Part shown: in pieces, positions 2,061 to 31,596 of the stretch
Layout of the letters: each line of letters opens with the position of its first letter
Numbering within the stretch: position 1 is the first letter of the stretch
Source: Sporosarcina sp. FSL K6-2383
GTDB taxonomy: Bacteria > Bacillota > Bacilli > Bacillales_A > Planococcaceae
Length of the DNA stretch: 64,000 nt
Assembly: GCF_038618305.1 (NCBI RefSeq)
Contig: NZ_CP152017.1
Coordinates: 3,323,001-3,387,000, forward strand
Reading direction: 5' to 3'
Notes under the pieces: model-generated
Seen by the model: only the letters and a program-made list of their open reading frames with translations
What the model was told of the DNA's origin: nothing
Databases searched by the model: none
Made by a program: the position numbers and the translations under genes

Positions 2061-3197
2061 TTACACCCTCATGACTTTATCTAAATGAGTTATCCATTCA
2101 TTTAATCTGTACTCTAAAACTTTAGTGTCAGATGTTCCTTGGGTAACAGACAGATTAAATCTTGGTTTATTTAATAGCTCTATATATAATGTTAATATTT
2201 CTGTTTTTTTTGCTTGAATTTCTTCAAATGTATACTGTTCAAAACTAATCATTATTACATCCATTATTGCTTTATTAATTTTTGTCTCAAAGCCATCATC
2301 ACTCAGCTTTCGGAATGCTTTATCTCCAAAAACTTCAAATACAGAATCAATCACTTTGTTAAACTTATCTTCAAGTTTTTGTATTATATCTATATTAAGG
2401 TTTTGATTACTTTCAAAATAAGAGTTTAAATATGTCTTTGTAGCACCTTTATAATTTCTGATTGAGTTTTTTTCGCTATCGAAATTCTCTGAAAATGAAA
2501 AATAACGCAATATCATTTCGCAATCTACCATTCTCTTGTGCGGCAATTTTAATCCTAACATATTTAAAAACTTTGGATTCTTAGCTAGATGCTTTAGTAA
2601 ATTATTTAAACTGCCTCTATATAAACAATTTCTTAGTTCTTGCTCGTTCAATTTTACAGAACCAGTGTTTAATCGCATAAAAATGTCATACTTAATTTCA
2701 GGATGCGAATCATTGAAAATTAAAATTACTCGTAGACTCCCATTATTTAATACTCTCTTAGCTTTTGGATTAAGGTCTTCATATTTTTCTCCATTTAATT
2801 CACTTAAGATTTTCAGACCACTTAACTTAAAATTATTTTCATAGAACCTCTTTAAAGCATTTAACCTTTGTAGTCCATCAACAATATTCCAACTACTATC
2901 TTCTTCTTCTGAGGCATAGATAACTGGTATAGGGATATTAAGCAATATAGACTCAATTAATAAAGAAGCCTTTTTATTATCCCATACATAATTGCGTTGA
3001 TATTCAGGATTTAAAATAATATCGTTTTCCCTAACCATTCTTACTAGGTCACCTACACTTTTATCATAAGCCTGTACCCTTAGCTTTCTCTGCTCAGTAG
3101 GTATTTCATTGATTTCCTCATCATCCTCTATCTCTACATCAATTATTTTATCCTCGAATTCTTCTGTCTCTTCACGAAAATATAGCAGTTCACTCAT
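2061..3197 (-). CDS. DUF262 (GmrS/ParB-like nuclease fold) protein
   Basis: The protein has 378 residues from the ATG at 3197, which has an AGGGGTG site 6 bp upstream; a GTG at 3206 overlaps that site. After an acidic N-terminal segment (about residues 9-33) comes the DUF262 domain. It shows PEYQRNYVW (64-72) and DGLQRLNAL (107-115), the conserved DGxQR motif of this ParB/Srx-like fold. DUF262 is the N-terminal part of GmrSD-type modification-dependent restriction enzymes and hydrolyses NTPs. The HNH-containing GmrD part (DUF1524) is absent. Instead a HEPN gene follows in the same operon, suggesting a two-gene defence or toxin module. The family call is firm and the role is inferred. Confidence 0.8.
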   Translation of the reverse strand: MSELLYFREETEEFEDKIIDVEIEDDEEINEIPTEQRKLRVQAYDKSVGDLVRMVRENDIILNPEYQRNYVWDNKKASLLIESILLNIPIPVIYASEEEDSSWNIVDGLQRLNALKRFYENNFKLSGLKILSELNGEKYEDLNPKAKRVLNNGSLRVILIFNDSHPEIKYDIFMRLNTGSVKLNEQELRNCLYRGSLNNLLKHLAKNPKFLNMLGLKLPHKRMVDCEMILRYFSFSENFDSEKNSIRNYKGATKTYLNSYFESNQNLNIDIIQKLEDKFNKVIDSVFEVFGDKAFRKLSDDGFETKINKAIMDVIMISFEQYTFEEIQAKKTEILTLYIELLNKPRFNLSVTQGTSDTKVLEYRLNEWITHLDKVMRV

Positions 3198-3538
3198 TTT
3201 ATACACCCCTATTTCATCTTTCTGTTAAGTTTACAATATATTCATTAAATTAATGCCTATTATACTATTAAACTGTATAATAAGTATAGGATTATAACCA
3301 TTTCCCATAATAACAGATAATAAAAGTTAAATATTCACTATTAAAGGCGAAATGAAAAAATTAATAGGCGAGGGTCTAATTAGTGGTCAATATGATATTT
3401 ATAAGTTCCTAAATACAAATCGTTATTAGGACATCCCTTGTTCAACTTAGGGGACAGGTTATTTCAACAAGAAGAATGAAAAGTTAGATTAAAATTTAAT
3501 TATATAACTAATCTAATTAACGAGAGGGACAAACCTAT
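3198..3538. other. Intergenic region between divergent genes
   Basis: This AT-rich stretch of 341 bp must contain the promoters of the DUF262 gene (leftward) and the split HEPN gene (rightward). A GAGAGGG ribosome site precedes the rightward ATG at 3539. I see no convincing hairpin, operator or small gene. Confidence 0.4.
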
Positions 3539-4365
3539 ATGAAATTTGAGGAACAACACCAAAACTATAAGACATATTCACACGAAGATTATAATATGAA
3601 TACATTCCCATTCTTTTTTATTTCTGACTTAAAGGGATTTATTCATTCTCAATTTATGAAGGAAGACCCTGATGAATCAAATGGTATTGCTTTAGAATTA
3701 CAACATAAACTTGCTGCCATAGCTAGTTTAGACCCGGCTTCCAATGGACCTTATGAGTATATATTCGATGAGATAATAAGTACGTTAAGAAAGTTGGAGA
3801 AGAAGGGCTTTACTAACTTAATGGATGGGCTTGCTTTAATATTGGCTTTTCTTAGATGTGACGTGGAATTTAATAATTTTTTTAAAGAAACAAGCATCGG
3901 ATATACCGCTACATTATCGAGCGGAGAGATTTTTTGGGAATTAAGAGAAGATGTAGATTCTTCAATAAAAAAATAGAGGAAGTCATTCCTTTAATACCTA
4001 ACGTTTACAAAGATACAATAGCAAGTTTGGAACATGCCATTAAACTATTTAATGATGCAGAAAATGATGAAAAATCACGAAAAAATGCTCTAAGGGAATG
4101 TATATCGGCTGTAGAAGGTTTTGTGAAATCAATAACAGGTACAAACGACATTAAAATAGCTGACCAACGAATATCTAAAGAAAAATATGCCCATCCAATA
4201 ATAACTCGTGATGCTTTAAAGGTATGGAATCATATAAATACCGACCTTCTAGATGTAAGGCATGGAAACAATGAATTTATATCAAAACTAGGTATTGAGG
4301 AAGTTACTTATTATATAGAGAGATTAGTTGCCTATATAAAATATCTAAATAGTAAAACTAATTAA
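3539..4365 (+). pseudogene. Split HEPN/Abi-like protein, one-base shift at an A7 run
   Basis: Two overlapping frames, 3539-3976 and a second frame ending at 4365, join into one protein of about 276 residues if the ribosome slips back one base at the seven A at 3966-3972. In the first frame the codons read ATA AAA AAA TAG, the A-AAA-AAA arrangement that supports -1 slippage. The spliced peptide reads SSIKKIEEVIP. The second half has a HEPN-like layout (RECISAVEGFVKSI then LLDVRHGNNEF), similar to the C-terminal domain of AbiJ-type abortive-infection proteins. The first half is not recognised. Loss of one A from an A8 run, a sequencing error and real frameshifting are all possible. Confidence 0.55.
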
Positions 4366-4523
4366 CCTTGTGCATTATTGTATCTAAAGTAACGGAAGCT
4401 TTAGATGAATAAGGAGCAGAAAAAAACCTCAAATAAAGATGTTTCTGCTTCCCTATAAATGTCTATTAATATAAGTAAAGTTCACCTCCCAACAATATTG
4501 GATATCATTTCCTCCTAGTGTAA

Positions 4524-4680
4524 TTAAATCACATTATCCTCTAAAAGTTTTTTCAATAATATCTCCTCTATATCCTTTAAATCTTCTGGATATAGCTCAA
4601 TAATTAGTATTTATTTTGCCCACAAATACTTAACTTCTTTAAAACCTTTCTCGAATTGCTCCCTATTTGATTGTTTTTAT
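4524..4680 (-). pseudogene. Coding remnant with internal stop
   Basis: On the minus strand one frame reads QFEKGFKEVKYLWAK, a stop, then IELYPEDLKDIEEILLKKLL and a final stop at 4524-4526. Stops also occur just upstream. It looks like the eroded C-terminal end of a charged helical protein. I do not recognise it. Apart from this, 4366-4686 shows nothing else. Confidence 0.25.
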
Positions 4681-4686
4681 TAAGTT

Positions 4687-5126
4687 CCTTTCCCGAGAAT
4701 GAGTATTGCAGACGGAATGAGCCAGTAAGTGCGGGAAAGGGAGCCAGCGATGATTACCGCCATGGGAATATAGCACTACTGCCATAGTTTTACCGTTGAA
4801 TGCCATGAAACTTACCACGCAATGCCACTGTATGTGCCAGTATGTGCAGACGCATATCAGCTGGGGAGAAAGTGCAGTTTCAGTACGACCTTAAGGCGGT
4901 ATGCGCTAGATAACGACTTGACATGGAGCCTCTACGGGCATGAGTCCCAAGCCAGGAAATCAGCAACACGTGCTGACTTGCCCCGCAAAGGCAATCATGC
5001 CCGCCTCTCCATGTAAAGTTGTAAGAAAAGGGATTGCTAACCTCCCCCAGTCGTTGTGTATCGGTGTCCATTCCCGGTTGAAGTGTATTTATAGTTGCTC
5101 AACGTTCAAGAAGACCGACACTTTCT
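4687..5126. ncRNA. Candidate large structured RNA, unknown class
   Basis: This GC-richer block in AT-rich DNA has at least nine nested complementary segments. A first hairpin pairs 4687-4695 with 4732-4740 (CCTTTCCCG/CGGGAAAGG). A second domain pairs 4744-4751 with 4856-4864. A third domain is closed by 4867-4874/5119-5126 (AGAAAGTG/CACTTTCT). Inside it are 4909-4918/5049-5062, 4921-4928/5007-5014 (ACATGGAG/CTCCATGT) and 4935-4943/4995-5003 (CGGGCATGA/TCATGCCCG). The last encloses two hairpins, 4960-4976 and 4978-4994. Another hairpin lies at 5075-5117. Frames across it are short and not protein-like. I could not match it to tmRNA, RNase P, group I or II introns, OLE or riboswitches from memory. 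The transcribed strand is unknown. Confidence 0.55.
4700..4725 (+). repeat. 26-bp inverted motif, left copy
   Basis: The 26 bases starting TGAGTATTGC and ending AATGAGCCAG recur in reverse orientation at 8302-8327 with 24 of 26 identical. Here the motif fills the loop of the first hairpin of the RNA candidate. The two copies bracket the polymerase/WYL/helix-turn-helix/zinc-ribbon genes. Confidence 0.6.
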
Positions 5127-5214
5127 AGCCAATCCTTCACTACTAGCACATGTTCTGTAAGCACCATGCCTTGCCGACTTAATATTCCCACTATCACGTA
5201 TCACATCGCTCCTC

Positions 5215-6474
5215 CTACCCTTTGTGTCCTCCAACCAACGTTGATCGTTTAATGGCTGTGCCTGCATCCGTTAATGAGATTGCTCGAAGTATCGCAGTAG
5301 AACCATATCGATTCCGAATGCGATCCATCACCTTTCCAACTTCTCTGCCACGCCAGTTATCCTGCTCAAACAAACTCAGCTGTATGGATTGCTCGTTTTC
5401 TAATTTTGTAATCGAGATCGACACCTGTCGTACTGATCGAGCATCATAGTTTTCGCTTAACAGTTCTTTACAAACTTCATAAATTTTCATCGTTTCGTTC
5501 GTCGCTTCACTAATAGTGCGAGAACGTTGAAAGCCCCCACCCAATGTATTTTTACTATACCCAATACCTAAACTTATTGTTCGCCCTGCTTTGGATGCAT
5601 CTCTCGCTCTTTTAGCAACATCCTCACACATTTCTAATACGACTGCCCTAACTTCGGCAATTGTTTTGTAGTCACGCATCAATATTTGGCTCTTGCCATA
5701 GCTAATCTGACCTTCTGGCATTTGTTCGTTTATTTTTGATAAGTCAATGCCCCAAGCGTGATGATACAACTGGTTGCCCATAATGCCGAATTTCTTTTCA
5801 AGCATTTCTAGCGAAGCGTGGGCAAGTTCCCCAACTGTAAATATCCCCAATGCGTTCAACGATTTTTCTGTTCGGCTTCCGATGCCCCACATTTGAGAGA
5901 GTGGGGACACTGGCCACAACTTCGTTTGTACGTCTTCAAATGTCCACTTGGCAAACCCTTTTTTCTTAGCTTCTAAATCAAGTGCCAATTTTGCTAGTAG
6001 CATGTTGGGACCCATCCCTGCCGTTGACGGTAAACCTAGCGTCTCATAGATTTCACTTTGGATTTCTCGAATGGTCTGTTCGGGATTTCCCCACAACCTT
6101 TCGGTACCTGTTAGGTCAATAAAAGATTCATCAATACTGTAGACGTGAATGGATTCTGTCGGGACGTATTTATGCAAAATTCTAGTGATAGACATCGAAA
6201 TCTCAAGAAAATATGCCATTTTCGGCTCGTATAGTCTAACCTCTGGATGTTTCGGGATTTCATACAGCCGATTTCCAGTTTTTATTTTGAATCGCTTTTT
6301 CATCGCTGGCGATGCTGCTAATACGACCGATCCTTTTTGTTGCAGGTTTCCAATAACCGCTATCGGAACAGTTCGTACATCCAAATTATACAAAGTAGCT
6401 ATACAACTTGCGTAAAAGCTCATCATGTCTATACAAGCGATTTGTCTGTTTGGGAATTTGCTGTAATCGAACAC
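5215..6474 (-). CDS. Y-family DNA polymerase, UvrX/ImpB type
   Basis: This 419-residue translesion polymerase has the palm-domain acidic residues D16 (ACIDMMSFYA) and D115-E116 (YSIDESFIDL). A helix-hairpin-helix-like thumb (WGIGSRTEKSLNALGI) and a C-terminal little-finger region ending in an SLFEQDNW-type clamp-binding segment follow. It matches the phage/plasmid UvrX branch rather than chromosomal DinB. It starts with GTG at 6474, sharing one base with the stop of the WYL gene, so the two are translationally coupled. The LexA-like box ahead of the WYL gene suggests damage induction. The family is certain, but activity is untested. Confidence 0.9.
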   Translation of the reverse strand: MFDYSKFPNRQIACIDMMSFYASCIATLYNLDVRTVPIAVIGNLQQKGSVVLAASPAMKKRFKIKTGNRLYEIPKHPEVRLYEPKMAYFLEISMSITRILHKYVPTESIHVYSIDESFIDLTGTERLWGNPEQTIREIQSEIYETLGLPSTAGMGPNMLLAKLALDLEAKKKGFAKWTFEDVQTKLWPVSPLSQMWGIGSRTEKSLNALGIFTVGELAHASLEMLEKKFGIMGNQLYHHAWGIDLSKINEQMPEGQISYGKSQILMRDYKTIAEVRAVVLEMCEDVAKRARDASKAGRTISLGIGYSKNTLGGGFQRSRTISEATNETMKIYEVCKELLSENYDARSVRQVSISITKLENEQSIQLSLFEQDNWRGREVGKVMDRIRNRYGSTAILRAISLTDAGTAIKRSTLVGGHKG

Positions 6475-6707
6475 TAAATAGCATCCCTTTCTTTGTTGAC
6501 GATAGGAACAAGAGCCAATATGTTTTCAATTAAAAAAGTACGTCTAGACTGCCGTAGATGACAATATGCTCGAAAAGAAACTTCACCAACTTGGATGACC
6601 ACTATCTTCCTTTTGCTGACTACACCGCTTTTATCGATATACATCATATCCAAGAGCGAACCACAATCCATTGACCTCGTTAACCGGTTAAGCACACCTG
6701 TTCTCAT
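6474..6707 (-). CDS. Small WYL-like domain protein
   Basis: This 77-residue protein has the pattern MMYIDKSGVVSKRKI ... FRAYCHLRQSRRTFLIENI. The pattern resembles the WYL ligand-binding fold (tyrosine near the strand end, Y-C-x-x-R, R-x-F). There is no DNA-binding domain, so it is a stand-alone WYL-like unit. Similar short genes precede uvrX-type polymerases in Bacillus phages and plasmids. The stop overlaps the polymerase start by one base. It may sense nucleic acid or ligand and modulate the polymerase, but that is conjecture. Confidence 0.65.
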   Translation of the reverse strand: MRTGVLNRLTRSMDCGSLLDMMYIDKSGVVSKRKIVVIQVGEVSFRAYCHLRQSRRTFLIENILALVPIVNKERDAI

Positions 6708-6725
6708 TCTTTTCTTCAGTATAAA

Positions 6726-6737
6726 GAATGTATGTTC
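6726..6737. promoter_or_regulatory. LexA/SOS-like box
   Basis: GAATGTATGTTC matches the Bacillus core GAACNNNNGTTC at all but one defined base and lies 19 bp upstream of the WYL-polymerase operon. That position fits SOS control of a translesion polymerase. Confidence 0.5.
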
Positions 6738-6752
6738 TTATCGCAATGTTTG

Positions 6753-7559
6753 TTAAAATAAAAGCTCATCTACCGACACATCATATTCCATAAAAATATC
6801 AGCAAACAACGCCTTATCAATCAAATTTCGGTATACGCCATCAAAATAACCAGCAATATTTCGAACCGTTTTGCGCTTTGTCGCTTGAACAGCAATATGA
6901 AGTGCTTGCATAGCTAATTGTTCGAGTAATTCTCCTTGGTGTGCGTGAATACTAAATTTCAACATGCGTAATGACTGTGCACGATAAATCCCGAACAATT
7001 GACGGGCTATGGAGCTGTCACCAATCGTCGTGGACAATAAATCTTTCATTCTTCCAAACAACGTAGTTGGTGTAGATATCGGCTCCGCAGGATACGTATC
7101 TGTAAGAGTATTGGTCTTTATGTTTTTAGTTTCAAAAGAAAATGATTCAGCATCGGGAACAACGTCGTCAGCCTTACTGTCACTAAGCTTGTCCACTGTT
7201 GCCGGCATGGTCAAAGTCGACTGGTCAACGAAGGGCAAAATAGTGTAAATGTTAGCACCAAGTCCGTTCGTAACGGGGCGAATATAATGGATACGTTCGA
7301 TGATGCCGAGGCTTTCCAATTTACGAATGGCACGGCGAACGGTTACGTTGGACTTGCCAATTTTGTCTGCCATCGTGTCGTGCTTTAAATGTGCAGCACC
7401 GTATTTCACGGAGTAACGACGAATCATATCAAGTACAGCACGATCTGTTGGATTCATCTCGCTCCAATTTTTGTTAACGTGACGGCGTGTTGCCTCGTCC
7501 ATATCTTGTGCATTTGTGAAATGTGCGTAGGCTTTTAAGTAAGTTGTCATGGTGGTCAT
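6753..7559 (-). CDS. Winged-helix protein, plasmid/phage replication type
   Basis: The protein has 268 residues. After about 30 residues comes a helix-turn-helix (LDMIRRYSVKYGAAHLKHDTMADKIGKSNVTVRRAIRKLESLGIIERI is the region at roughly 43-90, with KSNVTVRRAIRKLE as recognition helix). A basic segment (VQATKRKTVRNIAGYFDGVYRNLIDKA) sits near the C-terminus. This arrangement is common in plasmid and prophage helix-turn-helix proteins linked to replication. The start could be the ATG at 7559 or that at 7550, which has better spacing from the GGGG site. Its own gene precedes the WYL operon on the same strand. The domain is clear and the role is inferred. Confidence 0.6.
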   Translation of the reverse strand: MTTMTTYLKAYAHFTNAQDMDEATRRHVNKNWSEMNPTDRAVLDMIRRYSVKYGAAHLKHDTMADKIGKSNVTVRRAIRKLESLGIIERIHYIRPVTNGLGANIYTILPFVDQSTLTMPATVDKLSDSKADDVVPDAESFSFETKNIKTNTLTDTYPAEPISTPTTLFGRMKDLLSTTIGDSSIARQLFGIYRAQSLRMLKFSIHAHQGELLEQLAMQALHIAVQATKRKTVRNIAGYFDGVYRNLIDKALFADIFMEYDVSVDELLF

Positions 7560-7630
7560 GCCCCTTTTATTCTTTATATAGAGGGGAATGAGGAAATCGG
7601 ATACATATTTAAAAATATATTAAATAAAAG

Positions 7631-7660
7631 AAAAATCCTTCTGTGGAAGCAAGGATTTTA
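7631..7660. terminator. Hairpin with A/T flanks between divergent genes
   Basis: AAAATCCTT and AAGGATTTT form a 9-bp stem (about 7631-7639 and 7650-7658) with A/T-rich flanks on both sides. It lies between two divergent genes, so it may end antisense transcripts or a leader. I cannot assign it to either gene. Confidence 0.35.
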
Positions 7661-7811
7661 TCTAATGCATGTTTACTATCCTAAATAATTCTTTTCAATG
7701 CCCTTCCCCACTTTTTTTATGTGCATGTCTTTTTATCAGTATTTGTCGAAACATTTATAAAGGACTTTTTCCCTTCTCACCGAATTATGACTATAGAAGG
7801 AGGAGAACGCT

Positions 7812-8090
7812 ATGAAATGTATTAAATGCGGGATACAATTTAGCGAAGCCGACATTATGGTTATGGAAGAGCACGATTTACAGATTTGCGATTCATGCGA
7901 ATTGAAAACGGAACTCTTTTTAATTACTAACGCCGGGGTCAAATTCGCAGTTGAAGGGGAAAATCCAAATGAAGCTCTCCAAAATTGGGGACGCTTCGCA
8001 ATGAAGATGGGATTCATACATGAAGATGAACTTGCTACAATTCAGGTCGAACCACAAATAATCGAGCACGTTATTTTGGTACAAGACTAA
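7812..8090 (+). CDS. Small zinc-ribbon protein
   Basis: The protein has 92 residues and starts at an ATG 7 bp after a strong AGGAGGAG site. Two CxxC knuckles (C3-C6 in MKCIKCG and C26-C29 in ICDSCE) would bind one zinc ion. The rest contains a short alpha/beta part (ALQNWGRFAMKMGFIHED). It is followed by a good terminator, so it is a single-gene unit. I do not recognise a named family. It may be a regulator or adaptor of the mobile region. Confidence 0.6.
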   Translation: MKCIKCGIQFSEADIMVMEEHDLQICDSCELKTELFLITNAGVKFAVEGENPNEALQNWGRFAMKMGFIHEDELATIQVEPQIIEHVILVQD

Positions 8091-8227
8091 CATGCGCACC
8101 AAATATATCCAATAATGTTACATGATTTAAACTAATCTTCTTTAAAACAACTTTAGTGAACTTGTTCGTTGGGTAATGAAGTTATTCACAAACAATTAGA
8201 GAATAAAAGACTCAGATAAGGTAAACA

Positions 8228-8265
8228 GCCATTGGAACTTTAACATTCCAATGGCTATTTATTTT
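8228..8265 (+). terminator. Rho-independent terminator
   Basis: A perfect 10-bp stem, GCCATTGGAA (8228-8237) and TTCCAATGGC (8246-8255), is followed by TATTTATTTT. It closes the zinc-ribbon gene. Confidence 0.8.
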
Positions 8266-8267
8266 GT

Positions 8268-8340
8268 GCATTATTAGCAAGTGGCTCAAAACTCCACACA
8301 GCTGGCTCATTCTGTCCGCAATACTCACAAAGGCCTTACT
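8268..8340 (-). pseudogene. Short coding remnant containing the inverted motif
   Basis: On the minus strand one frame reads LCEYCGQNEPAVWSFEPLA and ends NNAQNK with a stop near 8268. A stop lies immediately upstream, so only the C-terminal tip of a gene remains. The CxxC-like EYCGQNEP motif is also encoded, as EYCRRNEP, by the plus-strand copy at 4700-4725. A second remnant, frame VTAMHEAGAGVAIIAKQ, lies near 8459-8560 on the minus strand. The rest of 8341-8663 shows nothing else. Confidence 0.3.
8302..8327 (-). repeat. 26-bp inverted motif, right copy
   Basis: This is the reverse complement of 4700-4725 with two mismatches. See the left copy. Confidence 0.6.
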
Positions 8341-8663
8341 GATTTCAGTATATATCAATTACTTATCAAGTCGAATCGTTCGTGAGCTACTTCAATTCGT
8401 GTGAGTGTATCAAGTCACCTCAATACAAGAACACACCTTTCCTTATTATCAGAGTATAACCAACAAACCTCGATAATTCGGATTTAAACTTTTATGATCA
8501 ATTTGTTTTGCAATTATAGCAACACCAGCACCAGCTTCATGCATAGCTGTTACTTGTGTTTTTCATAATGTATACGGTACAACCCCCTAACCATTTGTAA
8601 ATCGTCTTTCGATAAGCAAGGCTTTTCATAACTCGGGGTAAAAAAGAAGGCTCTCGCCCCCTT

Positions 8664-10142
8664 TTATTTTAGAATTAGTTTTAATTGTTTATTCTCTTTA
8701 CTGTATCCTTTTTTTTCATACTTTTCAGCAGGTAACATTTCATAATCACTATATTGAATTGAAATGTTACTTATTACAGGAGGAACATCTTTATCAAATG
8801 CCGATTTTAATCCATCAGATTGTAGTTGTAAAAGTATCTTATCTAATTCAACTTTAGAATGTTCATCTGAAGTATCACCATTAGAATATAAGCTTAAATT
8901 CGTTGGTAGATTATCCTTCAACTCAATTAATTCATCTATAGTAACTACATTTATGTTAGTAATCAATCCATATTTAGTAAATGGAGCTTTAGAAACTATA
9001 TTATTAATTTGAGTTCTAGCACGATCTAACGTCGCCAAATTATTCCAAACAAAATAATAATCTACTTTTCCAATTGTTTTATTCTTTAAAATAATTTCAT
9101 TTTCTTCAAGTTCCTTTTCAATAGCAATAATTAAACCAAAGTCATTAGAAACTAATTCAACATTTTTTTTAGTCTCATTTCTAAGTCTTTTTACAACTGC
9201 CTTTGGATATTTTAGCACTCTTAATTTATAGATGGATTCTTCTAAAATTGTTTTTAAACGTTCCTGGTATTGATAATAAGTTTCAATTTCTAACCACCTT
9301 TCTTCAACCAATTGCTTAGTTACAACTTCAAAAACTTTTTTGTAATCTGGGTTAGTATCAAATCCTAAATATCTACGATTCATTTTTTCAGCGGTAGCAA
9401 GGAAAACTCCTGTGCCAGCAAATGGATCAAATACAACATCATTTTCATCAGTTGAAAGTAAAATTAACCTTGCCATCATTTCTGGCGGGAACGGACAAGC
9501 ATGTCTAAACTCTTCTTCACCAAAATCTTTTTTACTTCCCCAACTACCTTGGGTTGGAATATAAAACTCCCAAATATTATCAGGCACTTTTCCTTGTGGA
9601 CCATATCTTTCAGGATAATCTATCCACCATTCTTTTAATTGTTCAGCGGATTTAATTCTATCAATATAATATTTATAATCTGTAGAATTTTCTTTAGTAA
9701 ACATTAAGACATACTCAAACACATTACGCATTTGACCTTTTCTAGACCAAGGCAACGTTTTTCCTTTATCCCAAATAATAGTATCTTGATGTATCCACCC
9801 AATACTTTCAAGCTCTCTTGCCATATCATCTGGCAATCTTACCATTTTCCCGTCACGTTTCATTGTGTCTACAATAACAAACATCGTAGCACTATCCTTA
9901 GAAATATGATGTACTCCTTCAAAAATCTTTCTTATATCCGCTAAATAAGCTTCATATTCTTGACCAAAGCCTGTTTGTTCTTTTACATCTCCATATTCTT
10001 TCATATCCCAATATGGCGGGGAAGTAACGATTAAATCAACAAATGGCTCATGATTAGAGAAGTATTCTTTTATAAATAATGAACTTTCGTTTATATATTC
10101 ATTTAATTTTCCCATATCTAATCCGTTAATATAATTTTGCAT
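8664..10142 (-). CDS. Type II DNA methyltransferase (beta-class, probably N4-cytosine)
   Basis: The protein has 492 residues from the ATG at 10142, which has a GGAGG site 9 bp upstream; the longer ATG at 10187 lies inside the operator palindrome. Motif IV is TSPPY (40-44), placing it among SPPY enzymes that methylate cytosine N4 or adenine N6. The AdoMet-binding motif I, DPFAGTG (239-245), comes after it, which is the beta order. About 200 extra C-terminal residues may help target recognition or be accessory. It is divergent from the C-protein and endonuclease genes, so it is the protective partner of that system. The likely site is GATC-centred, by analogy with the BglII/BstYI-like nuclease. 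Confidence 0.88.
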   Translation of the reverse strand: MQNYINGLDMGKLNEYINESSLFIKEYFSNHEPFVDLIVTSPPYWDMKEYGDVKEQTGFGQEYEAYLADIRKIFEGVHHISKDSATMFVIVDTMKRDGKMVRLPDDMARELESIGWIHQDTIIWDKGKTLPWSRKGQMRNVFEYVLMFTKENSTDYKYYIDRIKSAEQLKEWWIDYPERYGPQGKVPDNIWEFYIPTQGSWGSKKDFGEEEFRHACPFPPEMMARLILLSTDENDVVFDPFAGTGVFLATAEKMNRRYLGFDTNPDYKKVFEVVTKQLVEERWLEIETYYQYQERLKTILEESIYKLRVLKYPKAVVKRLRNETKKNVELVSNDFGLIIAIEKELEENEIILKNKTIGKVDYYFVWNNLATLDRARTQINNIVSKAPFTKYGLITNINVVTIDELIELKDNLPTNLSLYSNGDTSDEHSKVELDKILLQLQSDGLKSAFDKDVPPVISNISIQYSDYEMLPAEKYEKKGYSKENKQLKLILK

Positions 10143-10158
10143 TTTTAAGAAAACCTCC

Positions 10159-10181
10159 AAATGTGTGATTACCACACATTT
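10159..10181. promoter_or_regulatory. C-box-like operator palindrome
   Basis: Perfect 9-bp arms AAATGTGTG and CACACATTT are separated by 5 bp. The left arm directly abuts the methyltransferase ribosome site (10153-10158). The site lies between the divergent methyltransferase and C genes, the expected place for C-protein binding. Confidence 0.65.
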
Positions 10182-10241
10182 TAACATTATTTTTGTACTA
10201 CAATCAAGTAAATATAACTTTTAAAGTAAGGTGTTTTAAAT

Positions 10242-10481
10242 ATGACGAATATAAATAACCGTAATTTAATAGGTGGAAATCTAAAAAGAATTAGAAAAGA
10301 AAAGCATATCACACAAGACGAGCTCTCTGCACGATTACTTACTTCCGGGACTAATTTAGATAGACCTATGATATCAAAAATAGAAAATCTAACAAGAGAA
10401 GTAACCGATATTGAATTAGTAGCAATTGCAGAAATACTATCAATTTCAGTTCACGAGCTACTAAAAAAAGGGAATGACTAA
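10242..10481 (+). CDS. Controller (C) protein of the restriction-modification system, XRE family
   Basis: This is a 79-residue helix-turn-helix protein. GGNLKRIRKEKHITQDELSARL is the XRE core (about residues 11-32), with PMISKIENLTREVTD as the recognition region and IELVAIAEILSISVHELL at the end. The length and its place directly before the endonuclease gene fit C proteins, which delay nuclease production until DNA is methylated. The start has an AAGGTG site 7 bp upstream. It ends two bases before the endonuclease ATG, so the two are co-transcribed. The palindrome at 10159-10181 is its probable binding site. Confidence 0.85.
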   Translation: MTNINNRNLIGGNLKRIRKEKHITQDELSARLLTSGTNLDRPMISKIENLTREVTDIELVAIAEILSISVHELLKKGND

Positions 10482-10483
10482 TT

Positions 10484-11038
10484 ATGAAAATAGGTGCAGT
10501 GTATTCATTTAATAACGGAAAAGATATTATCGAAAACAACTACTCAAAGGAGCTTAAAGAAATCTATTGGGCTATCCAACAAATCGATGCTTCTAAGTAC
10601 AAGACAAAAATAAGTAAAGAAAAAACAAGTATCGGAAAAATATTATATAGCCCTACAGATTTAAATAAAGCATTAAAAAAGGTTTTAAACCCACTTGGAT
10701 GGGATAAATTAAAACACAATGCAATCTATGATCCTCCCCATCCAAAAATGTCAGTAACAAGGGCATTTCGAGAAATTGATTTCGTAAAAAATAAAGTAGG
10801 TGTCGAAGTTCAATTCGGAAAGTACGCTTTTATGGCTTATGACATTTGTAGTAAGATGCCGATTTTTCATCAACAAGGATATATTAATGTAGGAATTGAA
10901 ATTGTTCCAATGAAAACTTTTGCAGATGAAATGTCTACAGGTGTTTCTTATTTTGAACAAATTGTTTGGGACTTAGAAAACCGAGGAGTTTCTAATTTAG
11001 ATATTCCAGTATTAGTAATTGGTATAGATATGGATTAA
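10484..11038 (+). CDS. Type II restriction endonuclease, BglII/BstYI family
   Basis: The protein has 184 residues. The segment KVGVEVQFGKYAFMAYDI (around 106-123) carries the E-V-Q catalytic arrangement of BglII/BstYI-like nucleases. IFHQQGYINVGIEIVP and the C-terminal NLDIPVLVIGID also fit that family. Characterised members cut AGATCT or RGATCY. The exact site here is not determined. It is joined to the C gene and opposed to the methyltransferase, as in other C-controlled systems. The AIPR gene follows 51 bp downstream on the same strand. Confidence 0.82.
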   Translation: MKIGAVYSFNNGKDIIENNYSKELKEIYWAIQQIDASKYKTKISKEKTSIGKILYSPTDLNKALKKVLNPLGWDKLKHNAIYDPPHPKMSVTRAFREIDFVKNKVGVEVQFGKYAFMAYDICSKMPIFHQQGYINVGIEIVPMKTFADEMSTGVSYFEQIVWDLENRGVSNLDIPVLVIGIDMD

Positions 11039-11089
11039 CCCTGATTCATTATCTGATTTTCAATAATTTTTATAGGAAGTAGGATTATA

Positions 11090-12868
11090 ATGGCAACGAT
11101 ACACGATTATAAAATTTCTAGAGTAGCCAGTGAACGAATATTCGATTTAATATTCAAAGATTTACTCGATACTTCAACTATTAGTGAAGCTGATAAAGCT
11201 CGCTTAGGCTTTTATCATATCATAGTTGAGAATACTCTTGGTTTTAAAGCTCATATCTATAATTATGATGATGTTGAATTAAATGACGGTGTAATGACTA
11301 AAATTATTGACACAAACTACCTCGAGAAATTATATAATCCAGGTTATAAAATTGATGACTATGGTGTAGATGTTGTAAGTATTGAAGAACTATCTAGCTC
11401 TGAGGTTAATATTGATTTATTCAACTTTAAATACAGAGAATCTTTCAAACAAAATCATATATCAGACAAAGATATTTCTAGGAGTTCAAAGTTTCTTACT
11501 ATGTTACTTGGAGATGATGATTCCTTAGATGAATCCGAGAATATTTTAGTACATAAGATAATTAACTTATTAAAAAGTTATACAAAAAGTGACAGCAAAT
11601 ATAACTGTAATATTACTCTCCATATGGTTTCAAATGAAGCTTTTGGTTTACATGAAAATAGTTATGGATATATTGATCAACTTAAAAAATCATATGGTGT
11701 TGAAATTAACAGTATTACTTTAGATAATATTGCTAAATTCTATACTGAGAAAAAACAAACAAAATCAGCATCTTTTATTGTTGCTCAAGAAGATTTGATT
11801 TCATTCACTTTAGACCGGCAAACTTCTAACCAATCATTTATAGTTAAACTCCCTCTAAATGAGTTAATCCGAATAACTTGTGATCATCTAAGATTACCAC
11901 TTAATAAAAATCCGAATCTGGATGAGTGGAAAAGTGTTTTGAGTGTAGAACTCGATAGGTCTTTACTTTACGATAATGTTCGTGGCTATTTAGGTGATAC
12001 TGATTATAACAAAAATATCTTAAAAACTTTAAAAACTGCTCCAGAAAACTTCTTTTTATTCAATAATGGAATTACTTTAATTTCAGATAAAATAGAATCC
12101 AATAAGCTTTTCAACAAATTTGAAATAGCTCTTCAAGATTATCAAATAGTCAATGGTGGACAAACAATTTCCACAATTTTCGCATTTTTAAAACAGCTAT
12201 CTAAAGATAATGATTTTACTGATGAAGAAATTCACGAAGTGCTATCTCCATTATTTAACTCTCAAATATTAATAAGACTTTTCAAAGTACCTCAAGGCAG
12301 CAATTTAAAAAATTTAATAGCTGAGTACACAAATAGTCAAAATGCTATTTCAGCTTTAAATTTAAAATCTATTAGTACAATACAAATTAAAATTGAAGGT
12401 CATTTTAAACTTAATAATATTGTATATGCAAGAAAAGCAGGTGAAATTGGTAGCGATATTAAAAATCCTTTATTTAGAATCGCGATGGATGAATTAGCAC
12501 AAGTAATTTATTCCGCAAAAGGTAACCCTGAAAAAGTAAGTAGTCAAAAGAAAAAACTTTTTACAGATTATTATGATGATATTTTCCCTGAAGAAACTTT
12601 TGATTTAGATTATGCATATAAATTAGCTATGTCTTTTGAAAATATCAAACAAAAATATATTCAGTTACCTCAATATAAAAGAACCGATCAAAAAGTATTT
12701 TATATTATATACTTAATATCTCAATATGATTTAGATGTAATTAATGCTATAAATAAACTAGAAGAAGCTATACAAACTTACAATGTAAGTATACCAGACA
12801 ATCGAAAATTGATTCAGGTAAATTTCAGAAAACATTTAGATTCGTTAGTGTCTAGTCCTGTAGTTTAA
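11090..12868 (+). CDS. AIPR-family abortive-infection phage-resistance protein
   Basis: The protein has 592 residues. It shows the AIPR signature: DNVRGYLGDTDYNKNIL then FFLFNNGITLIS (about 300-340), QIVNGGQTISTIF (about 360-372) and LIAEYTNSQNAI further on. These proteins are found beside restriction-modification genes and are linked to phage resistance. Their biochemical activity is not settled. An AGGAAG site precedes the ATG. With only 51 bp after the endonuclease and a strong terminator behind it, it probably belongs to the same transcript, as a backup if restriction fails. That functional link is an inference. Confidence 0.85.
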   Translation: MATIHDYKISRVASERIFDLIFKDLLDTSTISEADKARLGFYHIIVENTLGFKAHIYNYDDVELNDGVMTKIIDTNYLEKLYNPGYKIDDYGVDVVSIEELSSSEVNIDLFNFKYRESFKQNHISDKDISRSSKFLTMLLGDDDSLDESENILVHKIINLLKSYTKSDSKYNCNITLHMVSNEAFGLHENSYGYIDQLKKSYGVEINSITLDNIAKFYTEKKQTKSASFIVAQEDLISFTLDRQTSNQSFIVKLPLNELIRITCDHLRLPLNKNPNLDEWKSVLSVELDRSLLYDNVRGYLGDTDYNKNILKTLKTAPENFFLFNNGITLISDKIESNKLFNKFEIALQDYQIVNGGQTISTIFAFLKQLSKDNDFTDEEIHEVLSPLFNSQILIRLFKVPQGSNLKNLIAEYTNSQNAISALNLKSISTIQIKIEGHFKLNNIVYARKAGEIGSDIKNPLFRIAMDELAQVIYSAKGNPEKVSSQKKKLFTDYYDDIFPEETFDLDYAYKLAMSFENIKQKYIQLPQYKRTDQKVFYIIYLISQYDLDVINAINKLEEAIQTYNVSIPDNRKLIQVNFRKHLDSLVSSPVV

Positions 12869-15214: not shown

Positions 15215-15618
15215 ACTCTAACTTTTAGGGGTCACATCACGCCGAGGTTTTCAATGGGGGTTACTCTTTTTGAGTAAACATCTTCACTTGTAATAACTTT
15301 GGTTAACCGCCCTTAAAGCGGAATGTAACTGAGATCAGCTGGACGTTTCCTAGACGTTCAGCTTTTCTTATTGTATGTTGATTTTACTACATTCATACAG
15401 GATGAACAGATGGAACTAAGAATTCCAGGCTCGACATCAAATTGTATTTGTTTCAGAACCTGGTATCTTACTCAACACGAACATATTTGCACCATATTAC
15501 TATGGAAGCGGCGGGAGTCGAACCCGCGTCCAAAGGCCCTAACACTTAAGCGTCTACGCGTGTAGATTGACTACTAGGTTTCGCGCATCAGTATGCCGGC
15601 AATCAGGGCGTCCTGTGT
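15215..15618. repeat. Right copy of ssrA-flank direct repeat
   Basis: This matches 579-986. It includes the IS right end, the ssrA downstream flank and about the last 118 bp of the tmRNA gene. The bases from 15235 to 15500 hold no gene; a hairpin-forming segment (GGTTAACCGCCCTTAAAGCGG area, then AGCTGGACG/CGTTCAGCTTTTCTTATT near 15338-15371) may be a rightward terminator. Confidence 0.85.
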
Positions 15619-15858
15619 GCTATTCTGCGAATCTCTTCCAACTGCCTCAGAAGGCAACAGTTGTCGTATCCCACTTAGAGTGAGCCCTGCAATGCTACAT
15701 GGGCGATAGAACTACAAGGCAGATTCAACAGCTTACGCTGCGAATGCTAGGTTGTTGTTTGTTTTGCCTGTTATTATAAGGTGTCGTTTCTGACGGAGCC
15801 GAACCCTCCGACGCGCAACTCAAGCTCAGACTACCCCTGTCGAATCCGTAACGCCCCC
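15501..15858 (-). rRNA. ssrA: Transfer-messenger RNA (tmRNA); listed here for want of a tmRNA type
   Basis: The 5' end reads GGGGGCGTTACGGATTCGAC and pairs with the 3' strand CGCTTCC as a seven-pair acceptor stem (two G-U). The 3' side has the T-arm GCGGGTTCGACTCCCGC. The final CCA is not encoded. The tag frame (15733-15768) starts at GGC and gives GKTNNNLAFAA followed by TAA, so the tag would be A-GKTNNNLAFAA. The RNA rescues stalled ribosomes together with SmpB, whose gene lies 94 bp upstream on the same strand. It is a non-coding RNA and not rRNA. Confidence 0.95.
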
Positions 15859-31524: not shown

Positions 31525-31596
31525 GTCCTCGTGGTGCAATGGATAGCACGTAAGCCTCCGAAGCTTAAAATGTGGGTTCGACTCCCGCCGAGGGCA
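31525..31596 (+). tRNA. tRNA-Arg (anticodon CCG)
   Basis: The acceptor GTCCTCG (31525-31531) pairs with CGAGGGC (31589-31595). The D-stem is GTGC/GCAC, the anticodon loop CTCCGAA gives anticodon CCG for CGG codons, and the T-arm has GGGTTCGACTCCC. CCA is not encoded. It is a single gene with its own terminator. Confidence 0.95.

Follow-up and report, generated by a model that had tools for sequence, protein, structure and literature searches.

Results

The locus and its surroundings

The window analyzed here is a stretch of 64,000 nucleotides, and the block of interest lies at positions 4687-5126 within it. The GC content of this block is 0.46-0.52, compared with about 0.29 just upstream and 0.39-0.48 in the polymerase gene downstream (5215-6474, PF00817), so the contrast is chiefly with the left neighbor; an earlier note on this DNA had placed the block clearly above its neighbors in GC, which holds mainly on the left. 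Coding potential is poor, as had also been stated (three open reading frames of 62-64 amino acids overlap one another on both strands, with no convincing gene among them), and a search for a transposase reading frame within 4687-5126 found none. The translesion polymerase to which the note had drawn attention is a neighbor, nothing more, and its proximity is incidental.

Several other features of the window were annotated. The region 2061-12868 forms a defense-type neighborhood, with a GmrSD-like restriction gene (2061-3206), an N6/N4 DNA methylase (8664-10187) accompanied by a BglII-like endonuclease (10484-11038), and an AIPR abortive-infection protein (11090-12868). A tmRNA gene (15500-15858, minus strand), a tRNA-Arg(CCG) gene (31525-31596) and two Bacillaceae-1 RNAs (RF01690; 19797-19863 and 30332-30397, both on the minus strand) are also present. 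A hairpin on the minus strand at 4404-4457, after the open reading frame 3934-4365, matches a plastid 3'-UTR family at chance level (E = 0.69).

An IS21-type miniature element that has lost its right end

The block is a truncated miniature element (MITE) of the IS21 type, carrying a structured core of about 111 nt that is common to many unrelated mobile elements. Matches by blastn were found in 34 of 101 genomes (the source genome included) and in 10 plasmid records, and the source genome holds two further copies (71% identity over approximately 310 nt and 76% over approximately 126 nt). The long relatives have positions 4751-5062 of the window in common. In five loci (L046, L049, L053, L054 and L056) the sequence matching the left end is present again, inverted, at the opposite end, as a partner of 67-70 nt with 73-76% identity, indicating that 4751 is the outer end of an element with terminal inverted repeats (TIRs) of about 68 nt; copies of the right end also appeared in L051, L053 and L058 when the window was compared by blastn. 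The window copy itself has the left TIR only. The same end is found at 2960-3038 of locus L045, followed by IstB (3356-4108) and IstA (4108-5610), and in L058 the core stands between IstB and the right end. From the TIRs of the relatives, and from the sharing of this end with an IstA/IstB-encoding element, we conclude that the window copy, in which no transposase is encoded, belongs to the IS21-type miniature elements and has lost its right end (Table 1).

The earlier note had drawn the block as one RNA of about 440 nt, and little of the outer part of that drawing survives. Its first hairpin (4687-4740) falls outside the mobile element, to the left of the TIR, and its next domain (4744-4864) is largely the TIR itself; its closing helix (4867-4874/5119-5126) is unsupported, because no relative covers 5063-5126 and none of the relatives found matches the 3' strand of this helix. 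Homology in the relatives is confined to 4700-5062, mostly to 4751-5062 (within the left flank, the match of L052 starts at 4700 and pieces of 28-61 nt occur in three further genomes), and the fold of the whole block barely improves on shuffled sequence (z = -1.51, with 4 of 100 shuffles as good; reverse strand z = -2.29, 1 of 100).

Two further observations concern related loci. At L041 (G006:C40, 1-1320) a terminal-repeat copy at a contig end adjoins a gene that we take to encode a DUF3800 protein. Another core in the source genome (L057) lies about 530 nt from a gene (3695-4504) whose protein looks much like the HTH protein encoded at 6753-7559 of the window; judged from this resemblance, both core sites may derive from a single duplicated region.

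Table 1. Coordinates (window numbering) of the miniature element, its core and the helices of the core
Feature	Position	Strand	Remark
Flanking sequence with the first hairpin of the earlier note	4687-4750		Left of TIR start
IS21-type miniature element (MITE), right end lost	4751-5062		Stretch common to relatives
Left terminal inverted repeat, outer end TGATTACCGCC	4751-4817		Inverted partner in relatives
Conserved structured core	4913-5023	+	R1 score 122.8 bits (+), 36.1 bits (-)
Stem P1, 5' side, pairs with 5007-5021	4914-4928	+	G-A mismatch at 4920/5015
Internal-loop strand CCUCUA	4929-4934	+	CCUC near-invariant
Stem P2, 5' side, pairs with 4995-5003	4935-4943	+	Covariation
Hairpin P3 (4949-4951/4977-4979, 4960-4964/4972-4976)	4949-4979	+	Covariation
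Hairpin P4, second arm of three-way junction	4978-4994	+	GCC/GGC exchange
Stem P2, 3' side	4995-5003	+	Covariation
Stem P1, 3' side	5007-5021	+	Covariation

A covarying core of about 111 nucleotides

The core is the best conserved part of the element, and in many relatives it is the only part that matches. We collected 207 cores, which reduce to 171 distinct contexts (four were dropped for length before a second alignment was made) and to 137 non-redundant sequences. In an alignment of 32 cores, 88.1% of cells are paired and 20 of the 31 pairs have changed on both sides; none of 500 shuffles reached this level on any of five measures, and slid versions of the structure were only 29-40% paired. 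Broken down by helix, changes on both sides affect seven of 14 pairs in P1 (90.8% of cells paired), five of nine in P2 (91.6%) and all eight in P3 (78-81%), and loci L304 and L305 have an entirely different P2 sequence in which pairing is retained. Each letter of the CCUC internal loop is the same in 136 or 137 of the 137 non-redundant cores.

For P4, a complementary triplet 4-9 nt upstream is present in 82 of 136 cores (43.4 on average when triplets are re-dealt, with none of 500 trials reaching 82), and GCC/GGC and GGC/GCC swap among cores. The GGC/GCC alternation near the 3' side of P2 is due to this hairpin and not to a pseudoknot; a CCU/AGG pseudoknot joining the internal loop to the bases that precede the 3' side of P2 was considered and rejected, none of its three pairs having changed on both sides. 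Hairpins P3 and P4 overlap by two bases, so that their outermost pairs compete. Taken together, the covariation in P1, P2 and P3 and the exchange in P4 describe a core made up of P1, the internal loop, P2 and then a P3/P4 junction.

Both homology and covariation therefore back the inner part of the structure first drawn, namely its stacked helices and three-way junction (hairpins 4960-4976 and 4978-4994), and leave out its outer helices, the closing helix having no conserved 3' strand. No Rfam family matched the core, either when the window was scanned or when 4400-5300 and eight loci were rescanned at relaxed settings, and membership in GOLLD, ROOL, HEARO or other families was not found at the curated covariance-model cut-offs, in agreement with the earlier opinion that no known RNA class fits. 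The suggestion of a large RNA borne by mobile elements was right as to the mobile elements and as to covariation in some of the helices listed; the conserved unit, at about 111 nt, is not of the GOLLD or ROOL kind.

Distribution of the core

The core is multicopy and widespread in Bacillota. Covariance model R1 matches 70 of 299 genomes of the class, often in several copies, and 22 of 398 genomes of the phylum (the source genome being included in both counts). A scan of named genomes with a near-consensus pattern returned at least 120 stretches, and the 80 titles listed were all Bacilli. In 18 genomes picked for their richness in cores there are 107 cores, counted on the best strand. In an Aeromonas plasmid an IS3-family gene ends 23 nt from a core, and the pattern is present in one viral contig; a phage collection gave no blastn match to the block, and an E. 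coli genome collection gave no match. Among the 171 distinct contexts, 153 fall into 24 flank groups (of two or more members) with shared flanking DNA, indicating that the core nearly always lies within a larger repeated element.

Carrier transposons

The carriers belong to the IS3, IS256, IS110, IS30, IS21, ISL3 and ISLre2 families (by NCBIfam or Pfam models). In elements that encode a transposase, the core lies between the transposase stop codon and the element end. Clustered contexts in which the 3' end of a transposase faces the core number 21 for IS3, 20 for IS256, three for IS30 and two each for IS110, IS21 and IS1634-like genes (family names were assigned on cluster representatives), at distances of -4 to 248 nt, mostly 15-55; in the ISL3 locus L196 the stop codon is 85 nt from the core. 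At loci L012-L015 the ends of an IS256 element, read by eye, enclose gene and core together, and for IS256 we dropped the idea that insertion sequences merely target the core. The other open reading frames facing a core at up to 250 nt, of which 66 encode at least 120 amino acids, are mostly ordinary and differ from one another. Of their 119 families, the 25 listed include two amidohydrolase models, the only ones to recur, and a single ISL3 transposase.

In the 18 core-rich genomes, at least 48 transposase-domain matches have a core within 1 kb on their 3' side, accounting for 46 cores. These were chosen by eye with computed distances, and the family counts are lower bounds (19 rve, 18 IS256, seven IS110, three ISLre2 and one ISL3) to be set against totals of 113 IS256, 131 IS110, 141 ISL3 and at least 279 rve matches; most rve, IS110 and ISL3 matches have no core. 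The single ISL3 case (in G681) is a core inside a nested element that cuts the ISL3 gene and has ends of another group. Relative to the gene, the core is opposite in 17 and the same in two rve cases, the same in 16 and opposite in two IS256 cases, opposite in four and the same in three IS110 cases, and opposite in all three ISLre2 cases. A core on the 5' side of the gene was seen for IS110 in G214 (two copies) and for IS256 in G680 (one copy). Carrier families also include relatives lacking the core: in L215, an IS256 relative whose transposase is 69% identical, a hairpin and T-run resembling an intrinsic terminator take its place, and the IS256 loci L220 and L221 have neither core nor terminator-like hairpin.

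Copy-out/paste-in is a mode of transposition for which the accessible part of PMC9333248 lists the families IS1, IS3, IS21, IS30, IS256, IS110, ISLre2 and ISL3. The comparison covered seven of these eight families, all except IS1, and all seven include carriers of the core. We searched ISLre2 because it is on that list: 123 matches occur in 38 of 299 genomes of the class, and a core lies on the 3' side of three of them, all in G061. There the three cores, to which no transposase had until then been assigned, follow ISLre2-type genes by about 135-140 nt (PF06782 scores above its cut-off, and the NCBIfam ISLre2 model is the best match but below cut-off, the protein being partial), none of 30 ISLre2 loci fetched at one per genome has a core, and viral contigs searched for relatives of the G061 protein yielded none. 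With its hits confined to one genome, this success is a modest test of the link to copy-out/paste-in. On the cut-and-paste side the comparison covered PF01609, which we take to be the IS4/IS5-type transposase domain; in the 18 genomes it has 380 matches, and none of the 150 checked among those listed is within 1.5 kb of a core. One family missing from the list in the accessible part of PMC9333248, IS1634, does adjoin the core: in L027 its transposase ends 138 nt away, and in L071 a fragmentary relative of 117 amino acids lies at 107 nt.

Miniature elements that carry the core

Core-bearing MITEs measure about 200-250 bp and comprise little besides their ends and the core, with no transposase. 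One set of groups has the ends GGCTCTTCGC...GCGAGGAAGC, which we take to be of ISL3 type, with 8-bp target duplications recognized by eye in L081, L147 and L086; in others the ends are TG...CA, with IS21-like repeats. The MITE at L290 (about 245 nt, ends TGTAACCG...CGGTTACA, 5-bp duplication ATCGC) lies within an IS256 gene, and L291 is a related copy (76-81% identical) without the MITE. From loci L307-L320, those inspected were L311-L313 and L318-L320.

Core similarity in relation to host and transposon type

Between flank groups, mean core identity is 0.623 for other transposon types within one host family and 0.571 for one transposon type in other host families; none of 300 label shuffles gave a value as high as that for host, and all 300 did so for transposon type. 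In this test the types rest partly on element ends read by eye, and coded host families were kept apart from named ones. Core similarity that follows the host in this way fits either local exchange or fitting to a host factor. Counts of label changes on a tree (23 for host, 20 for transposon type) favor neither.

Discussion

A possible DNA hairpin for copying the circular intermediate

That unrelated mobile elements share the core hints at a common helper for their movement. Our preferred reading, held tentatively and with well short of even confidence, is that the core is a DNA hairpin that acts in cis when the circular intermediate of copy-out/paste-in transposition is made or copied, by analogy with plasmid replication. 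In copy-out/paste-in the two ends of the element are first linked through a single strand, after which the double-stranded circle has to be made by host replication. To our knowledge, how the host copies this strand-joined intermediate is poorly understood. The core would act in cis in the form of a folded single DNA strand, and this hairpin, if read by host proteins, would prime or organize the copying of the circle much as the single-strand origins of rolling-circle plasmids do. Such priming would matter most for circles of about 200 bp, which might otherwise seldom be primed, and elements would gain a module already fitted to the host from one another. It is somewhat doubtful, and offered as such, that a single cis-acting module has been exchanged within host lineages among at least seven transposase families owing to their having the same circular intermediate, which would make it the first known host-facing part common to copy-out/paste-in elements.

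In favor of a cis-acting DNA role are the retention of the core in MITEs that have no transposase and the flips of its orientation within IS256 and IS110, as DNA would allow. The match between the carrier families and the copy-out/paste-in list, the ISLre2 cores to which that list led, the lack of cores near the PF01609 matches checked and the closer likeness of cores within a host family also speak for this reading. The off-list family IS1634, the core-less relatives within carrier families, the nested element behind the ISL3 case of G681, the cores on the 5' side of genes, the undecided counts on the tree and the RNA-like fold count against it.

RNA module or passenger

The core could instead be an RNA module, transcribed at the 3' end of the transposase mRNA or from the opposite strand, that binds a host protein, or that stabilizes or ends transcripts and so insulates the element from host transcription; we regard this as rather doubtful, if deserving of serious attention. 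The three-way junction, the near-invariant CCUC loop and the strong covariation are what an RNA might be expected to have, the core sits just past transposase stops (medians of a few tens of nucleotides), and in IS256 L215 it is replaced by a terminator-like hairpin. The mismatch pairs bear on the strand. On the strand read here, P1 and P2 contain 30 G-U and 87 A-C cells (120 rows from two model alignments, one of at least 150 matches; 47 and 116 in the second alignment), so that the other strand would have 87 G-U and 30 A-C, as a minus-strand RNA would show. Part of the A-C excess, however, is driven by one recurrent C-A pair, found in 22 of 41 flank groups, and the excess may come from a constraint on the sequence of the 5' arm; 23 tRNAs used as a control have 35 G-U among 498 pairs, a one-sided control in that ARAGORN marks no A-C. 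A T-rich stretch soon after the core is barely more frequent than after shuffling (37 of 169 versus 24.9; other strand 31 of 169 versus 22.0, the first 8 nt being uncounted). An RNA reading also sits poorly with MITEs that keep the core in the absence of a transposase, and with an orientation to the transposase that flips between families as well as within two of them.

Unlikely, in our judgment, is that the core is an independent passenger, a tiny mobile or recombining unit spread by transposons without benefit to its carrier. The 24 flank groups do represent many unrelated carriers, core similarity tracks host more than transposon type, and the non-coding stretch past a stop codon would tolerate inserts. 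Yet no bare core was seen inserted with a duplication of its own (the one filled/empty pair examined shows a MITE, complete with ends of its own, as the insert), 153 of the 171 contexts share flanking DNA with another, and covariation over the long term requires selection on the fold. The single large ornate RNA of 440 nt deserves practically no credence: the fold drawn for it is possible and Rfam offers no match, but its homology spans about 4751-5062 at most, its outer helices are unconserved, its left part is a transposon end and its folding z-scores are weak. A group II intron was also considered and was not borne out.

If the reading of the core as a DNA hairpin in cis is true, a conserved hairpin in most copy-out/paste-in families would provide a handle on the host step, would explain MITEs reduced to ends plus hairpin, and would flag active elements throughout Bacillota. 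Should the mechanism prove wrong, there would still be a strongly covarying module, found across at least seven transposase families and absent from Rfam, to explain.

Comparison with known systems

The window block resembles IS21-family MITEs in its ends, its small size and its lack of a transposase, and differs from them in bearing the shared core and in having lost its right end. The attC sites of integrons are long imperfect hairpins in which structure is kept more than sequence, with conserved outer boxes ending in AAC and GTT. The outer pairs of the core, in contrast, vary (for example, alignment columns 5-7 and 124-126); identity with attC was rejected because outer boxes are not conserved among cores, and no integron integrase was seen as a neighbor of the core. 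Several RNAs are tied to insertion sequences, among them HEARO (the omega RNA of IscB), the bridge RNA of IS110 and the RNAs of IS605-orfB. Unlike these, the core has no Rfam match and spans many protein families, the bridge RNAs being set apart on these grounds.

A literature search by topic, and by consensus letters in an open library, found no prior description of the core. The accessible part of PMC11109978, a 2024 survey, counts 250 mobile/repeat sequence candidates (MRSC) and describes MRSC-65-2, the one motif with which the core was compared. As characterized there, MRSC motifs are like the core in being structured, covarying, multicopy and near transposase genes, and the authors are undecided between RNA and DNA. 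MRSC-65-2, one motif of the 250, is set apart by that paper's text: it is a single long stem with the repeat UYCCGG, whereas the core, with its three-way junction and CCUC loop, lacks a conserved repeat of this kind. The analogy that we propose is with the single-strand origins (sso/ssi) of rolling-circle replicons, which the accessible part of PMC5714925 presents as strand-folded sites where the host starts the second strand; the analogy is one of putative function and not of sequence, and the carriers of the core are transposons.
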